Part shown: positions 41,881 through 48,289 of the stretch, piece by piece
Layout of the letters: each line of letters begins with the position of its first letter
Position numbering within the stretch: the stretch's first letter is position 1
Assembly (NCBI GenBank): GCA_015222055.1
Contig: JADFUR010000010.1
Span: 1 to 55,550, forward strand
Reading direction: 5' to 3'
DNA from: Bacteroidota bacterium
GTDB taxonomy: Bacteria > Bacteroidota > Bacteroidia > Bacteroidales > B39-G9
DNA: 55,550 nt
Translations under genes and position numbers: made by a program
The notes under the pieces: model-generated
Told to the model about the DNA's origin: nothing
Databases searched by the model: none
The model's input: only the letters and a program-made list of their open reading frames with translations

Positions 41881-42061
41881 TGGATAAAAGTTTAATAATC
41901 AAAATAAAGGAGGTGAAAACTATTGCAAATGGCTGTAATAGTTTTGGTGTTTCGTTATTATTATATTTTTTTGAGATGCTAATTGAGATTTTTACAACGG
42001 AAAATACAGATTTCATAGTTGTATCCGCCAGCACTTTGAGTTTTTTTCTGAAGCAAATTTT

Positions 42062-42679
42062 TTAGTTGTTAATTAATAATTCGTAATTTTTATTTTCATA
42101 CTTATATTTCACTATCCCTAATTTATGATTATAATAAATCTCGCTTACCGGAACACTATCAAGTGAAGTAAAATAATATACATTTTTTAACATAATGCCA
42201 TTAACGCTAAAGTTTTCATTTGAATTTTTCAATTTGTACATTTTATCCATAAACCAAATACCGGGCTCATATATTTTGTCTTCTCCGTAGAAAACATTGA
42301 TAGATTTACAGCCAAAAGGTGGATAAGGATACAATGTCATACCTTCTCCATAATCATATTGTATGCTATCATCAAAAATCAAATTACAGCCTTTAATATC
42401 ATCTGCATTAAAATAGAAATATAAATATTGAATTTTATAGATTTCATAAGGATTTTTAAGAGACGATCCACTCAATGAATGTTGCTGAGGTGCATTTAAA
42501 AGAGTTTTAACAAAAATTGTGTCATAATCAGTTTCTGATTGGTAAATTAATGTGTCATTATTTTTTAATTCTGTGTGATATTCGTCAGGTAATGTGTGAT
42601 ACTCATCATTAGATGGCTCACACGAAATTAATGACGCTTATACTATCAGTACAATAATTATTTTATATTTTATTTTCAT
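42062..42679 (-). pseudogene. Lipoprotein gene interrupted by one in-frame TAA
   Basis: Reading from the ATG at 42679 gives MKIKYKIIIVLIV, a TAA at 42638-42640 (codon 14), then in the same frame ASLISCEPSNDEYHTLPDE and on to the stop at 42062, 206 codons in all. Without the stop it is a textbook lipoprotein signal with lipobox LISC. The rest is a ~185-residue unknown protein rich in Tyr and Asp. There are no frameshifts, so a single base change explains the break. A short downstream part can start at TTG 42475 but would lack export. It overlaps the upstream gene by 17 bases. The family is not recognised. Confidence 0.75.
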
Positions 42680-43148
42680 AATTAGTTTGAATTAAAGTTT
42701 TTGTAATATTGAATTTAACAACTGAATTTTTATTTACTTTTTGTATTAAGCACCAAATTTCAATTGGGTTTTTTCTTTTACATAGTCCATTTTGCTCAAT
42801 TATGATGTCTACTGTATAATTATTGTTATTCTTTTTTATTTCGTATACGACTTTTGGTTCAAGACATCCCCCAACTGAAGAAATATAACCTATTATGGTG
42901 TGTTTATTAAAGTCAATTTGTGGTAATTCATAGGAATAGCAATCGGGATGAGGAGAACGGTCTTCTAATAATTTTTGGTAGTCAATATTATTACTAATTA
43001 CATGTTCTCCTGATAATTAGGAACCTAAAATAAGACATCCTAATGCAATTTCTTGACAAGGAATAATTTTTTCATCATTATGTATTATTGGATTTTTAAA
43101 CCCATATAATACTTCTGCAATTATAATTATTACTAATAGCTTTTTCAT
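42663..43148 (-). pseudogene. Small exported-protein gene interrupted by one in-frame TAA
   Basis: From the ATG at 43148 the frame reads MKKLLVIIIIAEVLYGFKNP, continues to a TAA at 43017-43019 (codon 44), then runs on in the same frame for ~117 residues (LSGEHVISNNIDYQKLLEDR onward) to the stop at 42663. The N-terminus is a plausible signal peptide, and several Cys are present (PCQEIALGC, HPDCYSYE, GGCLEP, GLCKRK, WCL), suggesting disulfides in an exported protein. The tail overlaps the next broken gene by 17 bases, an operon arrangement. The family is not recognised; each half alone would be incomplete. Confidence 0.7.
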
Positions 43149-43477
43149 AATCTATTGTTTCGTGTTATTATTCTATTCATTATTTATGGGGATTCGGGTT
43201 TTATAATTTTTCCATATTTTTAATATATTACATATATATACCCTCGCTAAGTGTATTTTTTAACTACAATTTTTAATAACAATAATGGGGATATTTTATT
43301 TTAACTAAAAGATTTAGAAGATATTAACATAAGAAAAAAGACAAACAGAAAAGGTGAAATTCGTTTCATAGTTATATTGTTTGTTCGTTTTTATAATATT
43401 TTTTAAATATAAAGAATAAAAAGAAACTTTGGCAATAAATTTTTCACATTCAATATTAATGAAAATTTGTAAGAATG

Positions 43478-43640
43478 TTAGTTTTGTTTTTTACGCTGAA
43501 AAATATATATCTCATACTCATAACCACCCAATACTTTAAATTTATTTTTTTCATCTTGACTTTTTCATATTTTATTTTTAATATATTTGTAAACTGGCGA
43601 TTTTTTCGGATGGGATTTGTATTTTTGATTGCAAGACAAA
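43478..43640 (-). pseudogene. Possible decayed 3' gene end with in-frame TGA
   Basis: The minus strand can be read as NQKYKSHPKKSPVYKYIKNK, I, TGA (43565-43567), then KSQDEKNKFKVLGGYEYEIY and IFQRKKQN to TAA at 43478-43480. The residues after the TGA look protein-like (a GGYEYEIYIFQRKK ending recalls C-termini of some transferases), but the family is not identified. The next gene's promoter lies inside this segment. It may be a gene remnant or chance. Confidence 0.25.
43582..43589 (+). promoter_or_regulatory. -7 promoter element of the GT-C-like / GT2 operon
   Basis: TATATTTG matches TAnnTTTG, 78 bases before the start at 43668. A TTG lies 23 bases upstream, farther than the usual spacing. 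Confidence 0.45.
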
Positions 43641-46997: not shown

Positions 46998-47930
46998 TTA
47001 AGCGTAAATTTTAGCGAATCTGAATAAAATGAATGATATATCTGTCACACCTTTTTGTGAAGCACGAAAAGCTTTTATTTTAGCATTAAAAGATTCTGCT
47101 GAAATTTGTACTTTTTTTGTCAAAAAAGTTTAGTATCTCTGGATAATGACTATAAATAGTTGCCGATATTGTATTAAATGATTTAAATCTCGATACTGTA
47201 ATTTCATTAAACCATCTTGCCAGTTTTGTTTAAGCAACATTCTTTTACTTAGTTTGAGAAAATATTATTCTCAAACGATGCGTTAGATTTGTAAGCTTTT
47301 GTTATATTAGGATATTGTTCAGATAGGATTTGGGGTCTTTGTTTCTGTTTTTCTGTCCATTTTTCAATAGATTTAAATAATAAATATCGACTGCGTGCCA
47401 ATAATTGTTTTCGAGAATCTTCATTTGAAAATAGAATAGGTAAGTGCTTTGTACCATCTGTTCTCGCATTTTCTATAGCACCTATTTCTTCATTTATAGC
47501 ATCCCATCTATAAGCAATACGCATTTCTTGGAGTGCATCGTAAGCTAAATTTTGGATATGAAAACGATCAATAACGTTTGTTGCTTGTGGAAAACAATTG
47601 CTAATTATTTTATTAATTGAACCTGCCATGTCAAAAGCAACCTCTTTTACTTGTTTTTTTTTAGATATACATTCTAAAACTTCATTTATTTTTTCACTAC
47701 AGGTTCCTTCAACCATATCTCCAATTGCATCTTTCTTTCCCTTACAGGCTTTATTATTAAAATTGTATATAATTCTCCATTTAGCAAACTTGTTTCATCA
47801 ATACTTAAGTGATAACCAATATTTTCAGGGAGATCATCCATTCTTTAGCATGTTTTTTTTGCTTCCAATTTTTATTGTTGTTTAAATATTTTTTGTATTG
47901 TTGACCAAAATAATCACCATTAGCATGATG
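46998..47930 (-). pseudogene. ISL3-family DDE transposase, frameshifted
   Basis: Pieces in successive frames read: HANGDYFGQQYKKYLNNN..KHAKEW; then, shifted, DDLPENIGYHLSIDETSLLNGE; then, shifted, the longest intact piece 47249-47842, including KKDAIGDMVEGTCSEK, VAFDMAGSINKIISNCFP, VIDRFHIQNLAYDALQEMR. After a stop at 47249 the C-terminus resumes in other frames, ending ISAESFNAKIKAFRASQKG and FRFAKIYA at 46998. The DET (first Asp), FDM (second Asp) and AESFNAKIK (Glu) blocks are the ISL3 catalytic triad. At least four frame changes separate the pieces, so it is dead. Confidence 0.8.
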
Positions 47931-47931
47931 A

Positions 47932-48289
47932 TTATTTGAGAAATCCTTTTAAAAAATCAGCAAATTTTTTTGTGTAACTTGTTCCGTTTGCTGTTAAATC
48001 TCAATTGGTAGTATATACTTTTCCTGTTGTTTTATTTATCCACTTACGTCTCGTACTCTTAGGCAAACAGCTTTATCCCTTATAGGAATTTTTTTATTCG
48101 TACTGGCTCATCAAAATTTTTAGATACTAATTGCTTTTTTTTATGTTCTGTCGGTTTTCTTCGCTTTTCATCCAAATGTAGTAACAAAACATTTTCTGTG
48201 GTTCTTTCTATTTCTACCAAATCAAAATATTCAAGCATTTTTTGTAAAAAGCATTTTAAATTTTCCCGAATTTTAAAGTGATCCTTCAT
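47932..48289 (-). pseudogene. ISAon1-type transposase N-region protein, broken
   Basis: The intact start is 69 residues (48080-48289), MKDHFKIRENLKCFLQKMLE to EPVRIKKFL. A frameshift then leads to PIRDKAVCLRVRDVSG, another to WINKTTGKVYTTN, a TGA where Trp would be expected, then DLTANGTSYTKKFADFLKGF and a TAA at 47932-47934. ISAon1-like elements encode this small zinc-/HTH-like N-part separately from the transposase. This copy is disrupted by two frameshifts and one nonsense codon. Confidence 0.65.

Follow-up and report, generated by a model that had tools for sequence, protein, structure and literature searches.

Single in-frame stop codons in two overlapping lipoprotein genes of a Bacteroidales genome very probably mark ordinary pseudogenes

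A stretch of 55,550 nucleotides (the window) from a draft Bacteroidota genome of 118 contigs (3.75 Mb, completeness 98.56) harbors two overlapping genes on the minus strand, each interrupted by one in-frame TAA and otherwise open. This arrangement raises the question of what the two stops represent: lost genes, suppressed codons, a reversible switch or errors in the assembly. Re-reading the frames confirms the coordinates given in a preliminary description of the locus. Gene 1 has its TAA at codon 44 and gene 2 at codon 14, within the signal peptide; both frames stay open past the stop to their end with no frameshift needed, and they overlap by 17 bases.

42663..43148, minus strand: gene 1, likely relic of a small exported protein from a lipoprotein family; TAA at 43019-43017, no lipobox cysteine
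42062..42679, minus strand: gene 2, likely relic of a lipoprotein gene; TAA at 42640-42638 in the signal peptide, paralogue stop-free
42663..42679, minus strand: overlap of genes 1 and 2; gene 1 probably reads on by chance into the beginning of gene 2

The gene 1 frame spans 161 residues and the gene 2 lipoprotein frame 205, with one TAA each. At the local GC content of 25%, a given reading frame stays open over 117 codons with a probability of ~1e-5, and over 191 codons with ~8e-9; across the 2 kb region in all six frames, 9 of 1000 mononucleotide shuffles have an open frame of at least 117 codons (longest 192). Length by itself is therefore suggestive but not decisive at this composition, and the frames are taken as real coding sequences because both have relatives in other genomes. 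Before the TAA, 43 residues of gene 1 and 13 of gene 2 remain. There is no in-frame ATG after the stop in gene 1, and the first one in gene 2 lies 100 codons downstream; a possible TTG restart at 42475 would yield 137 aa of gene 2, with signal and lipobox missing. With no good restart, the truncated products are unlikely to be functional. The overlap itself is probably not original but a chance read-on of gene 1, because the gene 1 family profile stops at 42699 and the homology between gene 2 and its paralogue begins at 42683. The profile, which was built with gene 1 included, leaves out the final 36 bases of the gene 1 frame.

The proteins had been described as unrecognised, which no longer fully holds: families are found for both, still without a named function. 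Profile searches at E 0.001 or better, in which the best 12 (gene 1) and best 10 (gene 2) candidates per genome were scored, detect the gene 1 family in 15 of 295 genomes and the gene 2 family in 20, own genome included. Internal stops are absent from 13 of 16 rows in the first family and 28 of 29 in the second (own copies and many partial matches counted); the stop-bearing rows are the two genes of the window and two short stretches of the gene 1 family (G119, G167). Both families occur together in three genomes (own, G178, G259), and on one contig solely in the window, a weak comparison given that G178 and G259 are split into hundreds of contigs. The profile searches found neither family in two genomes of the same genus (completeness 88 and 66). 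By these profiles, genes 1 and 2 are members of small lipoprotein families with a patchy distribution across the order.

Domain libraries add little. No scanned member of either family has a Pfam or NCBIfam match over the cut-off. Below it lie CotH (20 bits vs 23.8) for one gene 2 relative in G178, DUF237 (17.5 vs 25) for one gene 1 relative in G045, and a few weaker matches, and neither family profile finds a solved structure with E below 0.68. The profile NF053773 (NCBIfam, BSAP-5i family immunity protein) aligns over positions 1-109 of 135 with residues 1-111 of one gene 1 homologue (L007, in G178), scoring 18.5 bits (E 0.0016) where the cut-off is 150, and gives no match for gene 1 or for three other homologues. 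Membership in this family is rejected on that score and on the missing match in gene 1; the similarity is at most a lead. The gene for a BSAP-5i immunity protein has a MACPF toxin gene next door. In G178 the upstream neighbor of the gene 1 relative, the one neighbor scanned, has no MACPF match and encodes a trypsin-like protein carrying a T9SS tail, directly before the relative. A relative in G153 likewise directly follows a gene for a protein with Peptidase_S74 and T9SS domains, and by eye the relatives in G045, G061 and G005 (contig C505) have no secreted-protein neighbor. Elsewhere in G178 (L034 1-2943, minus strand), a gene 2 family lipoprotein, an exported protein, a second gene 2 family lipoprotein and a second exported protein, cut by the contig end, follow one another; the exported proteins are alike by eye, and the arrangement is a duplicated two-gene unit.

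Gene 1 shows losses beyond its stop. Its four closest homologues are stop-free and 23-33% identical to it, and it matches 12 of the 19 columns on which they agree, the other 7 being lost. By eye, all four have a cysteine directly after the hydrophobic signal, and the first cysteine of gene 1 is residue 31. MAFFT aligns the gene 1 TAA to a column with cysteine in all four, a placement made uncertain by a cysteine six residues earlier; the C-terminus of one homologue (L029) extends a few residues past those of the other three. In a single-sequence search with gene 1, four of ten rows contain stops: the window gene; L007, an intact gene that simply ends at its stop; and L011 and L013, both weak and apparently chance matches. 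Gene 1 has no second copy in the genome. Gene 1 looks like an older relic than gene 2, because the lipobox cysteine (a loss judged against proteins 23-33% identical) and several residues common to its relatives are gone and gene 2 has one visible lesion.

Gene 2, on the other hand, has a stop-free paralogue on another contig of the genome (C114, L005 3815-4435, minus strand), with 90% DNA identity over 615 bases. The homology is limited to the gene, running from four bases before the ATG to within the last codons. A third family member, on C113, is 29% identical over 93 residues. Differences between gene 2 and the paralogue are spread over codon positions as 24/21/22, and dN/dS is 0.62 by NG86 (bootstrap 0.38-1.17) and 0.72 by YN00. 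These values would fit weak or relaxed constraint, the range being also compatible with constraint until recently. The differences are concentrated in one block:

42254..42334, minus strand: mosaic block, gene 2 codons 116-142; 20 of its 27 codons differ between gene 2 and the paralogue, against 30 of 176 in the remainder

Such clustering is matched by none of 20000 shuffles. Within the block dN is 0.46 and dS 0.59, against 0.057 and 0.107 in the remainder, and outside it dN/dS is 0.53 (bootstrap 0.25-1.27). Because dS in the block is also high, the pattern points away from selection alone and towards import of a diverged stretch by one of the copies. The C114 paralogue may keep any function of gene 2. 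Just before it (L005 4442-4601, minus strand), the signal peptide of an exported protein is seemingly joined by deletion to the C-terminus KIEELTLYVIEQNK; in G005 (L035 3-1323), a full-length exported protein with an end like KIEELTLYVIEQNK precedes a small lipoprotein gene. Also upstream of the paralogue, at L005 4692-5595 on the minus strand of C114, lies a glycosyltransferase-like frame (named by eye) with an in-frame TGA and a frame change.

In the window, genes 1 and 2 are flanked by rimP-nusA-infB on one side and by a divergent gene encoding a long membrane-type protein on the other. Among five genomes from the same genus or family, rimP was located in three (G003, G004, G005) and in neither of the same-genus ones, and the pair is not seen beside it in these three (~1.5 kb viewed each). 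Next upstream of rimP lies a divergent gene in G003, and in G004 and G005 a gene for a small exported protein that does not evidently resemble gene 1 or gene 2. The pair at this place would be an insertion or a survivor, because it is unseen upstream of rimP in the three same-family genomes. Three further features surround it:

43449..43547, minus strand: degenerate direct repeat, upstream copy; one frame reads ...GGYEYEIYIF...stop
43301..43369, minus strand: short open reading frame resembling a signal peptide and closed by TAA; may be what is left of a third exported gene
41951..42047, minus strand: degenerate direct repeat, downstream copy; one frame reads ...GGYNYEICIF...stop

The two degenerate repeats of ~100 bases bracket the gene pair, and their peptide alignment score is reached by none of 1000 random pairs. 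Stricter DNA scoring of the flanks gives a different best alignment, reached by 10 of 500 shuffles; support for the repeat comes from comparing the peptides and from looser DNA scoring of a part picked after viewing. The repeats may be the ends of related genes left by an old duplication. For the short frame between gene 1 and the upstream copy, the rest of the genome holds weak matches alone (best E 0.09), and five short stretches of DNA elsewhere in the genome that match the region look unrelated by eye. Some 4 kb from the pair, at 47249-48289 on the minus strand, lies a transposase-like relic (named by eye), broken into several frames with stops. Promoter-like sites in the region number 28 against 18.4 expected (sd 5.0), which told nothing; a scan of the region for terminator-like sequences was empty, as was a search of the window against Rfam at gathering scores.

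Taken together, the two stops are very probably the result of ordinary pseudogenization of lineage-specific accessory lipoprotein genes. This reading follows from the stop-free paralogue, the stop-free relatives and the decay nearby, namely the transposase-like relic by the pair and the broken glycosyltransferase-like frame by the paralogue: the stops truncate frames that are kept open in the homologues of both genes. Both genes, lineage-specific and encoding small exported proteins, would have lost their function and acquired nonsense mutations, their frames being otherwise kept. Gene 1 probably decayed first, and its frame now runs, probably by accident, to an end within gene 2. Gene 2 would have decayed later through the one stop in its signal peptide, the C114 paralogue perhaps retaining the function. 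We infer loss of function, this order of events and redundancy as its cause. The earlier suggestion of a recent paired loss thus survives as to loss, and only half as to "recent and paired", since gene 2 has one visible lesion and gene 1 looks older. The locus resembles known nonsense pseudogenes of accessory genes in several ways: each frame has one in-frame stop, other genomes carry stop-free homologues, the genome itself has a paralogue, neighboring sequences are decayed and the position is lineage-specific. It differs in having two adjacent genes with one stop each and no frameshift, and is otherwise ordinary. That two neighboring nonsense codons occur without a frameshift is a little neat and counts against long decay.

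Errors of assembly or sequencing, by which the stops would be consensus errors or alleles of a minority strain, are an unlikely explanation. The assembly is a draft of many contigs and each TAA stands in an otherwise open frame, as such errors would have it, but two independent stop-making errors would be needed within one kilobase, and gene 1 has additional losses beyond its TAA. A scan of 231 kb likewise revealed no other convincing case by eye: 280 in-frame stops were weighed and 10 lie between coding-like frames, nine of them shadows of other frames by eye and the tenth the stop of gene 1. The scan is insensitive, having missed gene 2 (its pre-stop piece scores -0.04), and other broken genes may escape it too; within that sensitivity, it shows that the pseudogene rate of the genome is not high.

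A silent-donor role for gene 2 is very improbable. Here the unexpressed gene in the window would serve as a reservoir that recombines with the expressed C114 paralogue, conversion swapping the variable block 116-142 of a surface lipoprotein. The pilS and vls loci are silent-cassette systems for surface proteins, and the likeness is partial: a copy whose signal peptide is cut by a stop accompanies a stop-free copy, the two form a mosaic with one variable block, and their homology is restricted to the gene. Where several silent donor copies would be expected, however, the genome holds one near copy and no array, the C113 member being a distant one, and exchange is unobserved. The high dS of the block also fits a single import from a diverged relative. 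A donor role would moreover leave gene 1 unexplained, and the searches detected neither gene in the two genomes of the same genus.

Programmed read-through or suppression of TAA, giving full-length products, is hardly credible. It would account for frames kept past both stops. As the preliminary description held, however, TAA is a normal stop in this genome: among 97 long open reading frames (~250 codons or more) in the 231 kb, terminal stops are 76 TAA, 18 TAG and 3 TGA, TGA being rare in this set (window, L039, L040 and L044-L050). ARAGORN reads 39 distinct tRNA genes with ordinary anticodons (150 of 309 first-look candidates scored) and none has the anticodon TTA, which reads TAA; tRNA-Ile is also missing from this incomplete set, and a tRNA may hence have been overlooked. 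Most members of both families are, besides, stop-free. Suppression, which the preliminary description had entertained, is rejected along with recoding on the tRNA set and on TAA as the main stop.

Phase variation through reversible mutation at the stops, also raised there, drew no supporting sign and is practically dismissed by the repeat scans of the region, in which none of six tandem-array rows covers 43019-43017 or 42640-42638 and the inverted repeats are weak (18-35 bases at 71-89%), while gene 1 is single-copy and has no second copy for conversion.

After this analysis, neither recoding nor switching is a likely account of the two stops, and the finding has little wider importance. If gene 2 did act as a silent donor, the lipoprotein would perhaps protect the cell from a rival's toxin. 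As a by-product, two small lipoprotein families without a named function have been delineated, and the mosaic formed by gene 2 and its C114 paralogue hints at exchange of a variable block.
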